Shown piece by piece: positions 49,960 to 64,000 of a DNA stretch of 64,000 nt. This DNA is from Pseudomonas sp. GGS8 (lineage in GTDB: Bacteria; Pseudomonadota; Gammaproteobacteria; Pseudomonadales; Pseudomonadaceae), in NCBI RefSeq assembly GCF_024168645.1, contig NZ_JALJWF010000001.1, positions 1,417,001 to 1,481,000 of the forward strand, in the 5' to 3' direction. The notes beneath the pieces were generated by a model. That model saw nothing but the letters and a program-made list of their open reading frames with translations, did not search any database and was not told where the DNA came from. The translations under genes and the position numbers were made by a program. Within the stretch, counting starts at the first letter, position 1; every line of letters starts with the position of its first letter.

Positions 49960-50907
49960 TCAGTGTTTCAAACTGGCTTGAACGGTTGCCACACCTTCCT
50001 TGCCATCAAAACTGCTGACACCCGCCAGCCAGCGCTGAAGGTCTTCGGGATGATCGCGCAGCCATTGCCTGGCAACGTCCTGCGGTGTCTTGCGTTCCAT
50101 GATCGGCACCATCAGCTGGCTTTCCTGAGCGGCGGTGAAGGTCAGGTTTTCCAATAGACGGTTCACGTTCGGGCAACGCTCGGCATAGTCCGGCGCGGTC
50201 ACGGTGGAAACGGTCGCCGCGCCTTCGTTCGGGCCGTAGACGTCTTCGCTGCCGGTCAGGTAGGCGATGTTCATGTTGATGTTCATCGGATGCGGGGTCC
50301 AGCCGACGAACACCACGAACTCCTTGCGATTGACCGCCCGTTGCACGGCCGCAAGCATCCCGGCCTCACCGGACTCGATCAGCTTGAAGTCCTTCAAACC
50401 GAAGCGGTTGGTCTCGATCATGGTTTTGATGGTGGTGTTGGCGCCGCTGCCCGGCTCGATGCCGTAAATCTTGCCGCCCAACTGATCCTTGAATCTGGCA
50501 ATGTCGGCGAAGGTTTTCAGGCCGGCGGCAGCGACGTAGTCAGGTACGGCGAGCGTTGCCTGGGCGTCGGCCAGGCTCGGTTTGTCCATGACCTTCACTT
50601 GATTGGCAGCGACGAACGGGGCGATGTTCTTGTCCATCGCCGGTTTCCAGTAACCAAGGAAGATATCGAGGCGTTTGTCGCGGATGCCGGCGAAGATGAT
50701 TTGCTGTACGGCGCTGGTATGCTTGCTTTCATAGCCAAGGCCATTGAGCAGCACTTCGGCCATGCCGCTGGTGGCAATGACGTCGGTCCAGTTGACCACG
50801 CCCATGCGCACGGTCTTGCAGGAAGCGGGGTCGTTGGCGAAAACGCTGGTGCTCAGAAGAGCAGTGCCGGTGAGGATTAACAGACAGCGGTTGAACAGTC
50901 GTTTCAT
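49960..50907 (-). CDS. Choline/betaine-type ABC binding protein (orphan)
   Basis: 315 residues with signal peptide (MKRLFNRCLLILTGTALLSTSVFA split at VFA-NDP). OpuAC/ChoX-type fold: VRMGVVNWTDVIATSGMAEV, LDIFLGYWKPAMD, GIEPGSGANTTI and FVGWTPHPMN, the last three carrying the aromatic and acidic residues that cage quaternary amines. No permease or ATPase gene adjoins it. In Pseudomonas, orphan binding proteins of this type (BetX, CaiX) share one CbcWV core, so this may be another. Carnitine, choline or betaine cannot be told apart here. Confidence 0.87.
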   Translation of the reverse strand: MKRLFNRCLLILTGTALLSTSVFANDPASCKTVRMGVVNWTDVIATSGMAEVLLNGLGYESKHTSAVQQIIFAGIRDKRLDIFLGYWKPAMDKNIAPFVAANQVKVMDKPSLADAQATLAVPDYVAAAGLKTFADIARFKDQLGGKIYGIEPGSGANTTIKTMIETNRFGLKDFKLIESGEAGMLAAVQRAVNRKEFVVFVGWTPHPMNINMNIAYLTGSEDVYGPNEGAATVSTVTAPDYAERCPNVNRLLENLTFTAAQESQLMVPIMERKTPQDVARQWLRDHPEDLQRWLAGVSSFDGKEGVATVQASLKH

Positions 50908-54788: not shown

Positions 54789-56321
54789 TTACAGGCTAGG
54801 CAGCAACTTCGCCGTCACCAGATCATTCAGGCAACGCGTGGACAATAGCTCACTCGCCGCGTTGATGTCCGGCGCAAAGAAGCGATCCTTCTCATAGAAC
54901 GGCACTTCTGCGCGCAGGATGGCGCGAGCCTTTTCCAGTTTTGGCGAGGTTTTCAGACCGTCGCGCAAATCCAGCCCCTGGGCCGCAGCCAACCATTCCA
55001 CCGCGAGAATCCCGCGAGTATTCTCGGCCATTTCCCACAGACGCTTGCCCGCCGCCGGGGCCATGGACACGTGGTCTTCCTGGTTGGCCGACGTCGGCAG
55101 ACTGTCCACCGAATGTGGATGAGACAGCGCTTTGTTCTCGCTGGCCAAAGCCGCCGCGGTTACTTGAGCGATCATGAAGCCGGAATTCACACCACCATTG
55201 GCCACCAGGAACGGCGGCAGTTGCGACATGTGCTTGTCCATCATCAGCGAGATGCGGCGCTCGCTCAGGGAGCCGATTTCGGCGATGGCCAAAGCCATGT
55301 TGTCGGCGGCCATGGCCACCGGTTCGGCGTGGAAGTTGCCGCCGGAGATCACGTCACCTTCAGCGGCGAACACCAGCGGGTTATCCGATACGGCGTTGGC
55401 TTCCACGGCGAGCACTTCGGCGGCCTGACGGAACTGGGTCAGGCAGGCGCCCATGACTTGCGGCTGGCAGCGCAGGGAGTACGGGTCCTGGACCTTTTCG
55501 CAGTTCTGGTGCGAGTCGGACACTTCGCTGCGCTCACCCAGCAGATCGCGGTAAGCGGCAGCGGCGTCGATCTGGCCTTTCTGGCCGCGAGCGGCGTGGA
55601 TACGCGCATCGAACGGCGAGCGCGAGCCCAGTACCGCTTCGACCGTCATACCGCCAAGGGCCAAGGCGCCGGCGAACAGATCTTCGCCTTCGAACAGACC
55701 ACGCAGGGCGTAGGCGGTGGACACCTGAGTGCCGTTAAGCAGCGCCAGGCCTTCTTTCGCTGCCAGGGTCAGCGGTGTCAGACCGGCGACTTTCAGCGCT
55801 TCGGTGGCGGGCAGCCATTCGCCTTTGTAGCGCGCCTTGCCTTCGCCCAGCAGCACCAGCGACATGTGGGCCAACGGCGCCAAATCGCCGGACGCGCCGA
55901 CCGAACCTTTCAATGGAATGTGCGGGTAAACCTCAGCATTGATCAGCGCGATCAGTGCATCAATCACCTGACGACGAATGCCGGAAAAACCACGGCTCAG
56001 GCTGTTGACCTTGAGCACCATGACCAGCCGCACCAAGGCGTCGCTGATCGGCTCGCCGACACCGGCGGCGTGGGACAGCACCAGCGAGCGCTGGAGGTTT
56101 TCCAGGTCTTCGCTGGCGATGCGGGTCGAGGCCAGCAGGCCGAAACCGGTGTTGATGCCATACGCGGTGCGGTTCTCGGCGAGGATCTGTTCCACGCAGG
56201 CAACGCTGGCTTCGATTTGCGCCGAAGCGCTTTCGTCGAGGGTGATTTTGACCGGTTGCTGATACACATCACGCAGTTGGGCAAGGCTCAGTTGGCCGGG
56301 AATCAAATTAAGCGCAGTCAC
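54789..56321 (-). CDS. hutH: Histidine ammonia-lyase (MIO-containing)
   Basis: 510 residues from the GTG at 56321 ([16 protein letters not shown]), the length of P. putida HutH. AAGGAG lies 7 nt upstream; the ATG at 56327 is too close to it. Ala143-Ser144-Gly145 in [14 protein letters not shown] cyclise to the MIO electrophile. Tyr54, His84, Asn196, Gln278, Tyr281 and Arg284, equivalents of the known catalytic residues, are all present. It removes ammonia from histidine to give urocanate. It is downstream of a MIO-less paralogue and corresponds to hutH2 of SBW25. Confidence 0.95.
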
Positions 56322-56440
56322 ATTCATTCTCCTTTTGAGAGCATTTTTATTAACTAACCAGACGCTCCGGAGATATCCGTTGTCCGTCGCGTCCCGCCTT
56401 TTGGAGGGGCCGCGCCTTGGCACGCTGGTGGTTGTGGAAA

Positions 56441-57985
56441 TCAGTTGAGGTTCGGTACAGCTTTGTGCAACAAAATCGGGTCTTTCAAAACAGCAGCGGC
56501 GCTGGCGATGTCCGGTGCCAGCCAGCGGTCCTGGTCGTAAGCCGGAATACGTTCGCGCAGCAGGCGCCACGCGGCACCGGTGCCGGCGCCGAAGCCCGAG
56601 CCCGAGCCCTTGGAAAAGTCAGCTTTCAGGAATTCAAAGGCCTGGGCCGCCAGCAGGTACTCGATGGCGAGGATCTGCGTGCAGTTTTCCAACGCGCGAT
56701 GCAGCTTCAGCGCGGCGTTGGTACCCATGCTCAGGTGGTCTTCCTGCAAGCCCGAAGTGACGTAGTTATCGAGCACCGCCGGTTGCGCCAACTGGCGGTT
56801 TTCCGCACACAGCGACGCGGCGACGTATTGCACGATCATCATCCCGGAGTTCACGCCCGGATTGGCCACCAGAAAGGCCGGCAAACCGCTGACGTGCGGG
56901 TTGACCAAGCGGTCCAGGCGACGCTCGGCGATGGAGCCGATTTCGGCCATGGCGATCGCTAGCAAGTCAGCCGCCAAAGCAACTGATTGGCCGTGTGGAT
57001 TGGCCTGGGACATGACACGGAAATTCTCCGGCGTGCCCAGCAGCAGTGGGTTATCAGTGACGGCGTTGAGTTCGGTTTCGATCTGCTTCCTGGCGTGTTC
57101 AAGCTGATCGCGGGCAGCACCGTGCACTTGCGGAATCGAGCGGATGCTCAGTGCATCCTGAGTGCGAATGCCTTTGCTGTTGGCGATCACTTCACTGCCG
57201 TCAAGCAACGCCCGCAGATTGATACCCACCTGTTGCATGCCCGGATGCGGTTTGAGCGCGATGATCTCGGCATCGAACGCGGCAATCTGCCCGCGCTGGG
57301 CCTCGAAGCTCATGGCGCCGATCACATCGGCCCACTGCACCAGGTTCGTTGCATCGGCCAGGGCCAGGCAACTGAGGCCGGTCATGCACGGCGTGCCGTT
57401 GACCAGGCACAAACCGTCCTTGGCGCCGAGCTGAACCGGTTGCAGGCCCTCCTCGCTCAAAGCGTGTTGTGCAGAAACGATCTGCCCTCGATAGCTGACA
57501 TTACCGACGCCCAACAGCGCGATGCCGATGTGGGCCATGTGGGTCAGGTAACCGACCGACCCCTGGGACGGCACTTGCGGGGTGATGCCACGGTTAAGCA
57601 GCGCCAGCAGGGCTTCGACCACCCGGCGATGAATGCCGGATTTGCCATGGCTGTAGTTGTGGATCGCGGCGCAAATGATCGCGCGGGTCTGCTCGTCGGC
57701 CAGCGGTGCACCGACGCCGCAGGCATGGCTGAGCAAGGTGTTGCGCGACAGCTGGCTGAGTTGTTCGTCCTTGAGCGAGACGTTGCACAAAGCGCCCAGG
57801 CCGGTATTGACGCCGTAGGCACGCTCGCCGCTGGCGACGATGCGCTGGACGATCGCCTGGGCATTTTCGATCCGCGCCCAGGTTTGGGCCGATAGCTCGA
57901 GCTGCGCGCCATGGCGGGCTACCGCGACCACATCCTGCCAACGCAACGGGGCATCGGCGATAACGATTTTTTCAGCCTGGGACAT
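56441..57985 (-). CDS. Histidase-family paralogue lacking the MIO triad
   Basis: 514 residues from ATG 57985 ([19 protein letters not shown]), with GAGG 6 nt upstream. The frame is full length and intact. It aligns end to end with HutH but reads [11 protein letters not shown] where HutH has [14 protein letters not shown]. Ala-Ser-Gly, the three residues that form the MIO group, are gone (junction at about residues 145/146). The catalytic Tyr of QDPYSLR is Leu (QDALSIR, Leu279). Tyr57, His87, Asn196, Gln276, Arg282 and the QEDH motif remain. It is most likely not a normal ammonia-lyase. It may be a binding or regulatory subunit. Same orientation and operon as hutH, corresponding to hutH1 of SBW25. 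Confidence 0.92.
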
Positions 57986-58030
57986 CATTAACCTCATGCG
58001 TACAACCTGAATATTGATGCAGCTTTACTG

Positions 58031-58154: not shown

Positions 58155-58985
58155 TCAAACCACCGCCGCCCGCCGCTGTACGAACCGGTCCACATACTCA
58201 TCCGCCGGCGAATGCAGGATCTCTCGTGGTGTGCCGACCTGAATCAGTCGGCCATCCTTGAGGATCGCGATGCGGTTGCCGATGCGCACGGCCTCGTCGA
58301 GGTCGTGAGTGATGAAGACGATGGTCTTGTGCAGGGTCTTTTGCAGTTCCAGCAACTGGTCCTGCATTTCGGCGCGGATCAGCGGGTCGAGGGCGCTGAA
58401 GGCTTCGTCCATCAGGATGATGTCGGTGTCCGCCGCCAGTGCGCGAGCCAGGCCCACACGCTGGCGCATGCCGCCGGAAAGCTGATGCGGGTATTTGTTT
58501 TCGTAGCCCTTCAGGCCCACGGTGTTGATCCAGTGCAGCGCGCGTTCGGCGCACATCTGCTTGCTCTCGCCACGCACTTTCAGGCCGTAGGCGACGTTAT
58601 CCAGCACGGTTTTGTGCGGCAGCAGGCCGAAGCTCTGGAACACCATGCTGATCTTGTGCCGACGAAATTCACGCAGGGCTTCCATGTCGTATTGCAGGAT
58701 GTCCACGCCGTCCACCAGGATCGCACCGCTGGTGGGGTCGATCAGGCGGTTGAAGTGGCGCACCAGGGTCGACTTGCCGGAACCCGACAGGCCCATGATC
58801 ACGAAGATCTCACCGGTGGCGATGCTCAACGACAGGTCGTTCACGCCGACCACACAACCAGTTTCGGCCAGTACCTGATCCTTGGTTTTGCCCTGGCCAA
58901 TCATGCTCAGTGCTTCCTTGGAGCGGTTACCGAAAATCTTGAAGACGTTTTTGACTTCGATCTTGCTGATGGCTGCGTTGCTCAT
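58155..58985 (-). CDS. hutV: Histidine ABC transporter ATPase (HutV-like)
   Basis: 276 residues, ProV-type. Walker A GLSGSGKST, Q-loop VFQSFGLLPH, signature LSGGMRQR, Walker B DIILMDEAFSALDP. No CBS domains follow, which separates it from osmotic ProV. It overlaps hutW by 4 nt. Confidence 0.9.
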   Translation of the reverse strand: MSNAAISKIEVKNVFKIFGNRSKEALSMIGQGKTKDQVLAETGCVVGVNDLSLSIATGEIFVIMGLSGSGKSTLVRHFNRLIDPTSGAILVDGVDILQYDMEALREFRRHKISMVFQSFGLLPHKTVLDNVAYGLKVRGESKQMCAERALHWINTVGLKGYENKYPHQLSGGMRQRVGLARALAADTDIILMDEAFSALDPLIRAEMQDQLLELQKTLHKTIVFITHDLDEAVRIGNRIAILKDGRLIQVGTPREILHSPADEYVDRFVQRRAAVV

Positions 58986-59833
58986 TTGCTCACCTCATGC
59001 CGTGGCCGACCATACGCCTGTGTAATGCGGTCGATCACCACTGCCAGAATCACGATCGCCAGACCGGCCTCAAGACCACGTCCGACGTTGAGGGTCTGAA
59101 TCCCCACCAATACGTCTTCACCCAAGCCACGGGCACCGATCATCGAGGCGATCACCACCATCGACAGGGCCATCATGGTGGTCTGGTTGATCCCGGCCAT
59201 GATGCTTGGCAGGGCCAGCGGCAGTTGCACGCCGAACAGTTGCTGCCAGCGGTTGGCACCGAAGGCGTTGATCGCTTCCATCACTTCACCGTCAACCTGG
59301 CGAATACCCAGATCGGTCAGGCGGATCAGCGGAGGTGCGGCGTAGATCACCGTGGCGAAAATCGCCGGAACCTTGCCCAGACCAAACAGCATCAGCACCG
59401 GAATCAGGTACACGAAGCTCGGCATGGTTTGCATGATGTCCAGCAACGGCATCAACACCGAACGCAGGCGATTGCTGCGCGCAGAAAGAATGCCCAACGG
59501 AATGCCGATCAGCACCGAGATGACCGTCGCCACCATCATCAGCGCCAGGGTCTGCATCAGCTTGTCCCAGAGACCGACCGCGCCCACCAGGAACAGCAGG
59601 CCGACGATGACCGCCGTGGTCACGACTTTGCGGGTCGCGTGCCAGGCCACGCCCGCCACGATTGCCAGCATCAGCCACCAGGGCGCCGCACGCAGCAGCC
59701 CTTCAAGATTGACGATGGCCCACAGCAGGGTGTCGGAGATGCTGCGGAACACGTCGCCGTAGTTGGTGACCAGCGAATCGACCCAACCGTTGACCCAGTC
59801 GGCGATGGAAAAGGTAAAGCTTTCGGGAAACAT
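58982..59833 (-). CDS. hutW: Histidine ABC transporter permease (HutW-like)
   Basis: 283 residues of the ProW type with about seven helices and the EAA-type loop EVMEAINAFGANRWQQLFGV. It belongs to the trio hutX-hutW-hutV. Confidence 0.9.
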   Translation of the reverse strand: MFPESFTFSIADWVNGWVDSLVTNYGDVFRSISDTLLWAIVNLEGLLRAAPWWLMLAIVAGVAWHATRKVVTTAVIVGLLFLVGAVGLWDKLMQTLALMMVATVISVLIGIPLGILSARSNRLRSVLMPLLDIMQTMPSFVYLIPVLMLFGLGKVPAIFATVIYAAPPLIRLTDLGIRQVDGEVMEAINAFGANRWQQLFGVQLPLALPSIMAGINQTTMMALSMVVIASMIGARGLGEDVLVGIQTLNVGRGLEAGLAIVILAVVIDRITQAYGRPRHEVSK

Positions 59834-59903: not shown

Positions 59904-60872
59904 CTACAAGGCCGCGTCGATTTTCTTGGCTGCGTCTTCGCTCACCCACGCGTGCCAGACTTCAGGATGTTCCTTCAAGAAGATCTTGGCCAGTTTTGGC
60001 GACTCGATCCGCTCTTTGGCCATACGCCCCAGGTTCTGATTCAGCAGGTCGATCGGCAGGTTGACCTTTTCCAGCACGGTCACCAGTTCCGGGGCCTGCT
60101 CGTGGAAAGTCTTGGAGAGGCCGACCTTGATGGTCACGCGCTTGTCGACACCCGGTTTTTCTTCCAGTTTGACCACGTCGATCTGGCCCATCAGCGGGGT
60201 TGGCGACCAGTAGTAGAACAGGATCGGCTCGCCACGCTTGTAGCTCGACAGCACCGCCGCATCCAGCGCCGGGCCGGTGCCTGGACGGAAGTTGGTGTAG
60301 CTGTTTTCCAGGCCGTAGCTTTTCAGCATTTCGCTGTTATCCAGCTCGCAGGTCCAGCCGGCCGGGCAGTTGTAGAAACGGCCTTTGGATGGCTCTTCGG
60401 CGTCCTTGAACACCGCGGAATATTTGGCCAGGTCGGCAATGTTTTTCAGGTCCGGAGCCTTGGCTTCCAGTTTGCGCTTGACGTCGCCTTCGATCACGTA
60501 GCGCGGCACGTACCAGCCTTCGACAGCCCCCACCACCGGCGCACCGACACCGACGACTTTGCCGGCCTTCTCAGCCTTGTTCCAGACTTCGCTGCGGCCG
60601 ACCCACTCTTCGGCGAACACTTGGATGTCGTTGCTGCTCAGGGCGTTTTCCATGGTGATGGAGTTGCCCGGCAGGCTGTCGGTCTTGCAGTCGTAGCCTT
60701 TCTCCAACACAACTTGCAGCACGTCGGTCAGCAGCATGGCACTTTCCCAGTTCAGGCCGGCGAATTTCACCGGTTTGCCCGACTCGCACCAACCAGCCGC
60801 CTGAGTGGCGCCGGCACTGGCCAGCAGGCCCATGGAAAGCAATGTGGTCAGCAGGGTCTTGTTCGATTTCAT
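59904..60872 (-). CDS. hutX: Histidine ABC binding protein (HutX-like)
   Basis: 322 residues with a signal peptide ending ATQAAGW. OpuAC-type fold (VKFAGLNWESAMLLTDVL, DIQVFAEEWVGRSEV, PILFYYWSPTPLM). Position in the hut operon and similarity to HutX of rhizobia indicate histidine; ligand not proven here. It is 70 nt upstream of hutW. Confidence 0.88.
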   Translation of the reverse strand: MKSNKTLLTTLLSMGLLASAGATQAAGWCESGKPVKFAGLNWESAMLLTDVLQVVLEKGYDCKTDSLPGNSITMENALSSNDIQVFAEEWVGRSEVWNKAEKAGKVVGVGAPVVGAVEGWYVPRYVIEGDVKRKLEAKAPDLKNIADLAKYSAVFKDAEEPSKGRFYNCPAGWTCELDNSEMLKSYGLENSYTNFRPGTGPALDAAVLSSYKRGEPILFYYWSPTPLMGQIDVVKLEEKPGVDKRVTIKVGLSKTFHEQAPELVTVLEKVNLPIDLLNQNLGRMAKERIESPKLAKIFLKEHPEVWHAWVSEDAAKKIDAAL

Positions 60873-60940: not shown

Positions 60941-62413
60941 TCAGGCCTGCGCCGCAGCGCGACCGGTCCCGCTTGTTTTAGGTTGTACAACGCTGTCCTG
61001 CTCGACCGGCAGGATCAGTTGATCGGGTACTGCGCTGTGCCATTTTTTCGCGCACACGTAATACAGGGCTGCGGGAAGCACCAGACCGATGATCCAGGAA
61101 ATATCCACACCCCCCAGATCGTCCACCAGCGGACCGGTATAGAACTTGGTAGAGATGAACGGCAGTTGCACCAGTACACCGAAGACATAGACGCTGATAC
61201 CGAGAGGATTCCAACGGCCGTAGCGACCGTTCGGATCGGCCAGCGCCGGCACGTCATAGCGCTCGCGAGTGATGCAGTAGTAGTCCACCAGGTTGATCGC
61301 GCTCCATGGCGTGAAAAAAGCCAGCAAAAACAGGATGAAGGACTTGAAGGCACCGAGGAACGAGTGCTGACCGAGCAATGCGATCAGGGTCGCAGTGCCG
61401 ACGATGACCAGCACGAAGACCAGACGCTGCAAGCGCGTTACCCGCAGGTCACCACGGAAACCGCTGATGACGGTCGCAATGCACATGAAGCTGCCGTAGG
61501 AGTTCAGCGTAGAGATGGTGACCTTGCCGAATGCGATGCTGAAGTACAGCAGCGCAGCGGTGGCACCGCTGCCGCTCAAACCAACGATGTAAGCCACTTC
61601 GTGGCCGGCGAATTGCCCGTTGGCCATGGCGGCGGCAAACACGCCGAGGATCATCGCCACCTGCGCACCAATAACCGAACCGGCGCCGGCGGCGAAAAAG
61701 GTTTTCACCGAAGACGTGCTGCTCGGCAGGTAGCGTGAATAGTCAGCCACGTAGGGGCCAAAGGCGATCTGCCAGGACGCCGCGAGCGACACCGCGAGCA
61801 GAAAGCTGGTCCAGCTGAAGTGGCGGATTTGCAGGAGTGCGCCAACGTCAGTCTGGCTCATCAGGCGACTGAACAGGTAAACGAAGGCAATCACGCCAAT
61901 GACGCTGGCGACACGGCCGATGAAATGAATCACCCGATAACCGAGCACCGTGACCAGCACGATGACACTGGCGAAAATGAGGATACCGACGCTGTCGCTG
62001 ACGCCAAACAACTGGCCCAGCGCCTGGCCGGAAAGCACGGTGCCCGTTGCGGTGAAGCCCAGGTACATCAGGCACACCAGTACGATCGGGATGGCCGCGC
62101 CATAAACACCGAACTGCACCCGGCTAGAGATCATCTGCGGCAGGCCAAGCTTGGGCCCTTGCGCCGCATGCAGTGCCATCACGCCGCCGCCGAGCAATTG
62201 CCCGATCAGCAAACCGATCAACGACCAGAACACGTCACCGCCCAGCACCACCGCCAATGCACCCGTGACAATCGCGGTGATTTGCAGGTTGGCACCCATC
62301 CACAGGGTGAACTGGCTCAACAGACGACCGTGTCTCTCCGCTTCCGGGATGTAGTCGATCGAACGTTTCTCGATCAACGGTTTACTGCCTGCACGATCGT
62401 CATTAACAGCCAT
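60941..62413 (-). CDS. NCS1-family permease, probable urocanate transporter
   Basis: 490 residues with 12 helices. NCS1 (purine/cytosine-permease-like) features: QFTLWMGANLQITAIVTGAL and GLPQMISSRVQFGVYG. In SBW25 this gene position encodes the urocanate transporter hutTu, as I recall. It is downstream of hutU, after a REP doublet. Confidence 0.85.
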   Translation of the reverse strand: MAVNDDRAGSKPLIEKRSIDYIPEAERHGRLLSQFTLWMGANLQITAIVTGALAVVLGGDVFWSLIGLLIGQLLGGGVMALHAAQGPKLGLPQMISSRVQFGVYGAAIPIVLVCLMYLGFTATGTVLSGQALGQLFGVSDSVGILIFASVIVLVTVLGYRVIHFIGRVASVIGVIAFVYLFSRLMSQTDVGALLQIRHFSWTSFLLAVSLAASWQIAFGPYVADYSRYLPSSTSSVKTFFAAGAGSVIGAQVAMILGVFAAAMANGQFAGHEVAYIVGLSGSGATAALLYFSIAFGKVTISTLNSYGSFMCIATVISGFRGDLRVTRLQRLVFVLVIVGTATLIALLGQHSFLGAFKSFILFLLAFFTPWSAINLVDYYCITRERYDVPALADPNGRYGRWNPLGISVYVFGVLVQLPFISTKFYTGPLVDDLGGVDISWIIGLVLPAALYYVCAKKWHSAVPDQLILPVEQDSVVQPKTSGTGRAAAQA

Positions 62414-62549: not shown

Positions 62550-62577
62550 GCCACCCACTGAGGGTGGCTGGTTTTTT
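62550..62577 (+). terminator. Plus-strand hairpin with T-run at the hutU 3' end
   Basis: Stem GCCACCC/GGGTGGC with loop ACTGA (62550-62568) and TTTTTT at 62572-62577. The T-run is on the plus strand, opposite to hutU, and touches the hutU stop codon. No plus-strand gene lies near. On the minus strand the same stem follows hutU without a T-run. Confidence 0.45.
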
Positions 62578-64000
62578 ATTTGCCGGTGATCATCGGCAGG
62601 TTCAGCCCCTGTTCCTTGGCGCAGTCGATCGCGATCTGGTAACCGGCATCGGCGTGACGCATGACGCCGGTGGCCGGGTCGTTGTGCAGCACGCGAGCGA
62701 TACGCTCGGCCGCTTCGTCAGTGCCGTCGCAGACAATCACCATGCCCGAGTGCTGGGAGAAGCCCATGCCGACGCCGCCGCCGTGGTGCAGGGAAACCCA
62801 GGTCGCGCCGCTCGCGGTGTTCAGCAGGGCGTTGAGCAGTGGCCAGTCGGACACAGCGTCGGAACCGTCCTGCATCGATTCGGTTTCGCGGTTCGGGCTG
62901 GCAACCGAACCGGAGTCCAGGTGGTCGCGACCGATCACGATAGGCGCGGACAATTCACCGCTGCGCACCATTTCGTTGAACGCCAGACCGAGCTTGGCGC
63001 GCAGACCCAGGCCAACCCAGCAGATACGTGCTGGCAGCCCCTGGAAGCTGATGCGTTCGCGGGCCATGTCCAGCCAGTTGTGCAGGTGGGCATCGTCCGG
63101 GATCAGTTCTTTGACTTTGGCGTCGGTCTTGTAGATGTCCTGCGGGTCGCCCGACAGCGCAGCCCAACGGAACGGGCCGATGCCACGGCAGAACAGTGGA
63201 CGGATGTAAGCCGGTACGAAACCTGGGAAGTCGAATGCGTTTTCCACGCCTTCTTCTTGCGCCATCTGACGGATGTTGTTGCCGTAGTCGAAGGTCGGCA
63301 CGCCCATTTTCTGGAAGTCCAGCATCGCTTTAACGTGCACGGCCATCGATTGCTTGGCGGCTTTGACCACGGCAGCAGGTTCGGTCTTGGCGCGAGCGCG
63401 GTATTCGTCCCAGGTCCAGCCGGCTGGCAGGTAACCGTTGAGCGGGTCGTGGGCGCTGGTCTGGTCGGTGACCATGTCCGGGCGTACGCCGCGACGAACC
63501 ATTTCCGGGAGGATTTCAGCGGCGTTGCCACACAGGGCGATGGAGATCGCCTTGCCTTCGGCGGTGTATTTGGCGATACGGGCCAGTGCGTCGTCGAGGT
63601 CTTTGGCTTGCTCGTCGACGTAACGGGTTTTGAGGCGGAAATCGATGCTCACTTGCTGGCATTCGATGTTCAGCGAGCACGCACCAGCCAGGGTTGCAGC
63701 CAAAGGCTGAGCGCCGCCCATGCCACCGAGGCCTGCGGTCAGGACCCAACGACCTTTCAGGTCATCGTTGTAATGCTGGCGACCGGCTTCGACGAAGGTT
63801 TCGTAGGTGCCCTGGACGATGCCCTGGCTGCCGATGTAGATCCAGCTGCCGGCGGTCATTTGGCCGTACATGGCCAAGCCTTTGGCGTCGAGTTCGTTGA
63901 AGTGTTCCCAGCTCGCCCAGTGCGGTACCAGGTTGGAGTTGGCGATCAGCACTCGCGGGGCGTTGCTGTGGGTCTTGAACACGCCGACCGGCTTGCCGGA
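62576..64000 (-). CDS. hutU: Urocanate hydratase, N-terminus outside the window
   Basis: 474 C-terminal residues of a protein near 560 residues; about 85 residues are beyond 64000. The first complete part is [20 protein letters not shown]. It hydrates urocanate to imidazolonepropionate with tightly bound NAD+. The NAD-site [12 protein letters not shown] and the conserved Cys region [13 protein letters not shown] are both visible, and [19 protein letters not shown] is the C-terminal signature. It is the first gene of the hut operon within this window. Confidence 0.96.

Follow-up and report, generated by a model that had tools for sequence, protein, structure and literature searches.

We report that a gene in a 64,000-nucleotide stretch of the Pseudomonas sp. 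GGS8 genome (contig NZ_JALJWF010000001.1; hereafter, the window) probably encodes a catalytically active lyase that works without the 4-methylidene-imidazol-5-one (MIO) electrophile of histidases. The gene (positions 57985–56441, minus strand) lies beside the canonical histidase gene hutH, and its product, here called the HutH1 type, would convert a histidine betaine (most likely hercynine) to urocanate by releasing trimethylamine, with the substrate supplied by a linked transporter. Hercynine is N-alpha-trimethylhistidine, i.e., histidine betaine, and is produced by fungi and actinobacteria. Ammonia is a poor leaving group unless activated by MIO, and trimethylamine should leave without such activation. 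The proposed mode of action is ergothionase-like, but we would not class the HutH1 type as a member of the ergothionase family.

The reading frame is uninterrupted over 514 codons, and the protein matches the PF00221 model (HAL/PAL/TAL fold) with 560.6 bits (cut-off 27.3) over residues 14–474, nearly its whole length, in agreement with the original prediction, made from the DNA letters, of a full-length histidase paralogue. It shares 39% identity with the adjacent HutH, passes the cut-off of the broad NF006871 subfamily and falls narrowly under that of the hutH equivalog TIGR01225 (537.4 against 539.15 bits). Comparison with orthologues favours the start MSQ at 57985 over the ATG that lies upstream at 57997. 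Among the matches listed, relatives are named histidine ammonia-lyase or HAL/PAL/TAL family ammonia-lyase by their sources.

The loop that bears the Ala-Ser-Gly triad in HutH is three residues shorter in the HutH1 type and has no triad, and Asp148 of HutH, which follows the triad, is lost or replaced by Tyr. The HutH motif QDPYSLR reads QDALSIR, with Leu279 in place of HutH Tyr283, which we take to be Tyr280 of the P. putida enzyme. Tyr57, His87, Asn196, Gln276, Arg282, Glu415 and Asp416 (the last two in the QEDH motif) are retained. The alignment with HutH thus bears out the missing triad, the Tyr-to-Leu change and the retained residues as originally described. A triad displaced within the loop was also looked for; the only A-S-G found is at residues 51–53, outside the loop, where HutH has none, and it occurs in 6 of 20 clade members. 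Judging from the loop, the usual MIO cannot arise from a triad there in this protein.

These features set apart a whole clade. In the aligned set, the triad-free loop combined with Leu occurs in 20/20 clade members and 0/42 HutH proteins; Tyr146, His149 and Leu279, together with other residues, are invariant in the clade and absent from all 42 HutH. At position 279, Leu is also found in 4/4 proteins of the ergothionase group, and Tyr in 42/42 HutH and 6/6 PAL/TAL-like proteins. Position 387 is Tyr in 20/20 clade members and in 2/42 HutH, of which 38 have Val, and HutH Phe332 is replaced by Pro or Ala in the clade. Two protein searches, each covering the best 120 matches, returned the Y-L-T/S-H loop with Leu in 121/121 (a set that includes the window protein) and 120/120 proteins among the matches listed. 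This is beyond chance, and the gap, whose conservation across Pseudomonas the original prediction proposed to check, is present in all of these proteins. In the first 150 loci, tblastn yielded 247 HAL-family frames. The Tyr loop without the triad occurs in 114 of them, all at least 46% identical to the window protein; a triad occurs in 132, none above 44% identity (ASG in 130, ACG and TSG in one each); and the one missed by the pattern, 100% identical, is the window gene itself. Because the loci were chosen by similarity, this split is not an unbiased census.

The HutH1 clade is old, under purifying selection and patchily distributed, with no broad conservation in the class. It forms one clade with members across Pseudomonadota: 23 of 398 phylum genomes carry a member, and none besides the window's own genome was found among 229 class genomes at E ≤ 1e-60. 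The median ratio of nonsynonymous to synonymous substitution rates (dN/dS; NG86, without a tree model) is 0.076 for the HutH1-type gene (80/80 comparisons of the window with orthologues) and 0.050 for HutH2, the canonical type (78/78). All full-length HutH1 copies compared have 507 or 514 residues. Gene decay is rejected on the low dN/dS and the intact lengths, and the earlier view that selection maintains the gene stands.

The loss of the triad and the Tyr-to-Leu change recur in ergothionase, the ergothioneine trimethylamine-lyase, of which PDB entries 6s7j and 6s7q represent the Treponema denticola enzyme. The group that includes 6s7j has no intact triad (loop SSIGEGDITTLSH) and Leu for the catalytic Tyr in 4/4 aligned members and in 120/120 proteins among the matches listed for P0122. 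It shares with the HutH1 type the HAL fold and, in most members, the Gly330-to-Ala change. Ergothionase itself lacks MIO and releases trimethylamine (PMC13405746, consulted in part), the leaving group that we propose for the HutH1 type as well. The two groups differ in that the ergothionase loop keeps Asp (E-G-D, E-A-D, A-A-D or E-S-D), whereas the HutH1 loop is Y-L-T-H with Tyr for Asp; in position 387, which is Lys or Arg in ergothionase but Tyr in the HutH1 clade; and in the neighbouring urocanase, divergent in the former and canonical in the latter. By alignment, the HutH1 clade has part of the ergothionase changes plus changes of its own.

We consider it improbable that the HutH1 type is itself an ergothionase producing thiourocanate and trimethylamine from ergothioneine, even though the two active-site changes are common to both. 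A tree of 73 proteins resolved the HutH1 clade (20 proteins, support 100/99), HutH (42, 98/92), the PAL/TAL-like group (6, 99/90) and the ergothionase group (4, 100/100), and a second tree of 51 proteins gave 100/100 both for the HutH1 clade (13) and for the ergothionase group (10). It should be noted that the loop columns stayed in these alignments and that the Burkholderia HME13 ergothionase and its group stand outside the trees and the comparison. In the best trees the two groups are separate (100% bootstrap for each), which favours independent losses of MIO; a joint clade is not rejected by the approximately unbiased test (p-AU 0.129 for the 73-protein and 0.408 for the 51-protein tree). 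Against PDB, the window protein scores 219 bits to 6s7j, 327–329 bits to P. putida-type HutH structures and 327–353 bits to several HAL structures.

The two types also coexist in single genomes, because of which their substrates probably differ. Burkholderiaceae genomes G954 and G983 encode a protein with the loop GSIGEADITILSH and QDPLSFR; for the copy at L203, 6s7j is the only PDB match at 1e-50 or better, and L208 is alike. This ergothionase-type gene (L231, L233) lies near a HutU-like gene with 50% identity to the window HutU, and at other places the same genomes carry the HutH1 type, its loop verified, together with a HisJQMP transporter (L232, L234). At the related loci L235 and L158, the HutH1 type accompanies a urocanase 75% like the window HutU; ordinary hut genes as neighbours likewise argue against an ergothionase. 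A HutH1-clade protein and a member of the ergothionase group are also found together in G009, G017 and G561.

Further observations concern the ergothionase group itself. The divergent urocanase of L231 and L233 is a candidate thiourocanate hydratase. Group members at L174:6933–8345 (plus strand), L175:6477–7904 (minus) and L156:5013–6545 (minus) have ESD or AAD loops and QDPLSFR/YR motifs, and their neighbours are OpuAC binding proteins and a gene of the ornithine cyclodeaminase family. Most of the named relatives of the L156 protein come from rhizobia and, among the matches listed, are called histidine ammonia-lyase or HAL/PAL/TAL family.

The HutH1-type gene is retained or lost with the neighbouring transporter and not with HutH. 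In 25 genomes of the genus, it is present in 17, 16 of which have a HutX orthologue, and the other 8 have neither (Fisher p = 8e-6, counts not corrected for phylogeny); the exception, G023, has the lyase, permease and ATPase genes, and no binding protein was found at the locus. The hut loci of five of the 8 genomes without HutH1 and HutXWV (L182–L186) retain HutH. Among 298 Pseudomonadaceae genomes, the HutH1-type gene occurs in 97 and HutX in 104, with both in 93 and at most 4 kb apart in 89. In the four genomes with the gene and no HutX hit (G733, G735, G809, G897), a BCCT or HisJQMP transporter adjoins the gene instead.

Thirty varied neighbourhoods of HutH1-type genes were read: 17 of the 22 non-own clade hits of the 398-genome search (without L122–L125 and L128), two genus genomes, seven family genomes chosen for lacking HutX or having it at a distance, and four of the 18 hits in Burkholderiaceae, where two further regions are the ergothionase loci L231 and L233. 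The set is not one of independent cases, since several of the loci share a genus. A transporter was found within the cassette in 28/30, from three unrelated families: the OpuAC/ProVWX betaine type at seven loci (L161, L162, L165, L166, L167, L180, L181), a BCCT betaine carrier at five (L155, L156, L190, L191, L192) and the HisJQMP type at 16 (L151–L153, L157–L160, L163, L193–L196, L232, L234–L236). Betaine-type transporters thus account for 12/30 neighbourhoods. Pfam typed BCCT in L155 (390.9 bits), SBP_bac_3 in L158 and OpuAC for the window HutX; the remaining labels come from BLAST to Pfam-typed proteins or from clustering. A simple script called the open frames, and it erred in places in G+C-rich loci: the L193 ATPase was hidden, and L180 has an ATPase and a permease and no binding protein among the called frames. 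Genes for hut enzymes are present in 20/30. At the five BCCT loci, the genes run HutU, BCCT, lyase without interruption and continue with HutI-HutG or with HutH, so that BCCT fills the slot held in the window by HutTu-HutXWV between HutU and the lyase. At L159, and at this locus only, an oxidase of the N-methyl-tryptophan oxidase family (415.9 bits, cut-off 257) directly follows the lyase.

This linkage bears on whether the protein is a non-catalytic paralogue, i.e., whether it senses histidine or urocanate or joins HutH in mixed tetramers, which we regard as improbable. A loop that forms no MIO, the 39% identity to HutH, and the presence of HutH next to the gene could be expected of such a protein: in 80 named Pseudomonas loci, which are 88–96% identical and thus closely related copies, HutH lies at most 400 bp downstream in 79/79 assessable cases, and the ATPase gene at most 400 bp upstream in 79/79. 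The dispensability of hutH1 for growth of strain SBW25 on histidine (PMC8871633, a review consulted in part) also fits a non-catalytic role. But the active site retains many residues and has acquired new, fixed ones, the gene follows its transporter and not HutH, cassettes without HutH beside the lyase exist (e.g., L156, L158, L180, L196), and a sensor should have no need of three unrelated transporter families. Of the three roles offered in the original prediction, the MIO-independent reaction fits best, and the sensor and the HutH hetero-oligomer do not hold up well, since the gene follows the transporter and can stand without HutH. Overall, the HutH1 type looks, from these comparisons, more like an enzyme with another substrate than a sensor or a dead partner.

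The transporters give some indication of that substrate. For BCCT carriers and OpuAC binding proteins, the known substrates are mainly quaternary ammonium compounds, and HisJQMP-like transporters in general take up amino acids. In the window HutX, Trp173 and Trp222 correspond in the alignment to Trp140 and Trp188 of E. coli ProX, which presumably form its betaine cage; together with Trp90, they are kept in all 14 HutX-like proteins from 11 chosen loci and the window. A second OpuAC-family binding protein of the window (49960–50907, minus strand) has Ser at the position of Trp173; its gene is close to where the hut genes end, and no permease or ATPase gene adjoins it in the frames read. EgtU, an ergothioneine ATP-binding cassette (ABC) importer of Firmicutes with an OpuAC-type binding domain (PMC9732360, consulted in part), resembles HutX as a betaine-type binding protein that accepts an imidazole betaine. 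It differs in binding hercynine about 10,000-fold more weakly than ergothioneine (PMC9732360), and HutX is described here from its sequence.

An unlikely alternative to hercynine is that the MIO-free lyase acts on a different substituted histidine or imidazole compound, one with another leaving group or a ring substituent. This would agree with the fact that 16 of the 28 linked transporters are HisJQMP-like and not of the betaine type, and with the sister-like proteins of L168 and L194, which keep the catalytic Tyr and lie beside a transporter 72–76% like those next to the HutH1 clade. A separate Pseudomonas cluster at L171 (3617–11742, minus strand) combines a divergent HutH with a canonical triad (52% identity to the window HutH), HutI-like (23%) and HutU-like (44%) genes and its own HisJQMP-type ABC transporter; it may degrade a modified histidine, and its existence makes modified histidines a real substrate space. 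The linked BCCT and OpuAC systems and the imidazole-betaine binding of EgtU speak for a betaine instead, and a full-length canonical-type HutU in many of the loci points to urocanate as the product.

Several results weigh against hercynine or against the proposed reaction as such. No transporter adjoins the gene at L154 and L164 (2/30), most linked transporters are of the HisJQMP type, and hut enzyme genes are missing from 10/30 neighbourhoods. Of the 201 family genomes without the lyase, 11 have HutX, in versions 64–74% identical, and the co-occurrence counts carry no phylogenetic correction. The HutXWV system of SBW25 also participates in histidine uptake (PMC8871633); this and the HisJ-type neighbours make the substrate less certain. 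The active sites of the HutH1 type and ergothionase are not the same, because neither the Phe332 change nor the new Tyr146 and His149 are shared with ergothionase. Loss of MIO and the Tyr-to-Leu change are not strictly coupled, since the third MIO-less group (L168, L194) retains Tyr. Finally, no report of a hercynine-degrading lyase of this type was found in the open-licence PMC literature, which leaves subscription journals mostly outside.

A strict coupling of the two changes was accordingly considered and rejected. The third group itself represents a further type of HAL protein without MIO in Pseudomonas (L168:7177–8715 and L194:10824–12413, both minus strand), with the loop GSVGYLAVEGH and the motif QDAYSLR, encoded beside a HisJQMP-type transporter; in L194 the gene stands in tandem with a 90% orthologue of the HutH1-type gene.

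In the mechanism we propose for hercynine, the cassette transporter (HutXWV in the window) would import the betaine, and the Tyr57/Glu415 framework would take the beta proton. The space freed by loss of the MIO loop and of Tyr280 may hold the trimethylammonium group, with Tyr146, Tyr387 and Leu279 lining it. Trimethylamine would then be eliminated without an electrophile, which should be unnecessary because trimethylamine is already a good leaving group, and the urocanate formed would be degraded by the neighbouring HutU, HutI, HutF and HutG. That histidine is still deaminated by a MIO-independent route appears highly improbable. Retention of His87, Glu415, Tyr57, Asn196 and Arg282 would suit such a reaction, as would the reported histidine uptake by HutXWV, but ammonia without MIO is chemically a poor leaving group. 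The P. aeruginosa genome should, we assume, also carry a HutH1-type orthologue. Even so, its hutH (PA5098) mutant grows poorly on histidine (PMC12772324, consulted in part).

The window shares with SBW25 the operon slot hutU, hutTu, hutXWV, hutH1, hutH (PMC8871633). The same review supports the statement in the original prediction that only one of the two hutH copies of SBW25 is needed, and its consulted part makes no mention of the missing triad. We consider the chances about even for a wider hercynine route, suggested by the sequence comparisons, in which a dedicated transporter (ProVWX, BCCT or HisJQMP) would be combined with a MIO-free betaine lyase (Y-L-T/S-H site) and the Hut pathway; many "second histidases" would be its first committed enzyme, and MIO loss with Tyr-to-Leu would be a repeatable conversion of an aromatic ammonia-lyase to a trimethylamine-lyase, independent of that in ergothionase. 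If true, the proposed activity would explain the dispensable hutH1 and the unneeded third uptake system in SBW25 and would give a function to a gene present in 97/298 Pseudomonadaceae genomes searched. Plant-associated bacteria would count hercynine among their nutrients and form trimethylamine as a by-product, and the HAL fold would have a second natural case of working without MIO, beside ergothionase.

Table 1. Position of the HutH1-type gene, its diagnostic codons and neighbouring genes in the window.
Feature	Position	Strand	Basis
MIO-less HAL-family lyase (HutH1 type), proposed histidine-betaine (hercynine) trimethylamine-lyase, 514 aa	56441..57985	minus	Open frame, PF00221, clade and active-site analysis
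Codons of the loop, residues 142–152 (A-S-G-bearing loop in HutH), including Tyr146 and His149	57530..57562	minus	Alignment, clade conservation
Codon of Leu279, in place of Tyr283 of the window HutH	57149..57151	minus	Aligned set
Codon of Tyr387	56825..56827	minus	Aligned set
7-residue insert	approx. 56600..56620	minus	Not in orthologues read
Canonical histidase HutH (HutH2 type) with A-S-G	54789..56327	minus	TIGR01225 729.5 bits, NF006871 766.7 bits, both over cut-off
ABC transporter ATP-binding protein, ProV/choline-type (HutV)	58155..58985	minus	TIGR01186 proV 370.7 bits, over cut-off
ABC transporter permease, choline/betaine-type (HutW)	58982..59833	minus	TIGR03416 294.7 bits, under equivalog cut-off
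Substrate-binding protein HutX, OpuAC family	59904..60872	minus	PF04069 206.4 bits; Trp90, Trp173, Trp222 kept
NCS1-type permease, HutTu position	60941..62413	minus	TIGR00800 123.1 bits, under cut-off; name from literature
Urocanase HutU, probably cut by window edge	62576..63982	minus	Open frame; HutU reference in searches

The frame at the window edge is presumably HutU, a name that we give by synteny. HutTu is a urocanate carrier according to the literature (PMC8871633). The insert of Table 1, at about residues 456–462, is missing in the orthologues read, which have 507 residues; a 98% relative in G895 may have part of it. PA5093 is, on our assumption, the second histidase-like gene of P. 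aeruginosa. The consulted part of PMC12772324 assigns PA5093 to hutG, perhaps through a mix-up of labels, and this affects how the mutants of that paper are to be read. A third PF00221 protein is encoded in the same genome outside the window (G000:C1:1390064–1391425) and is 35% identical to the HutH1-type protein.
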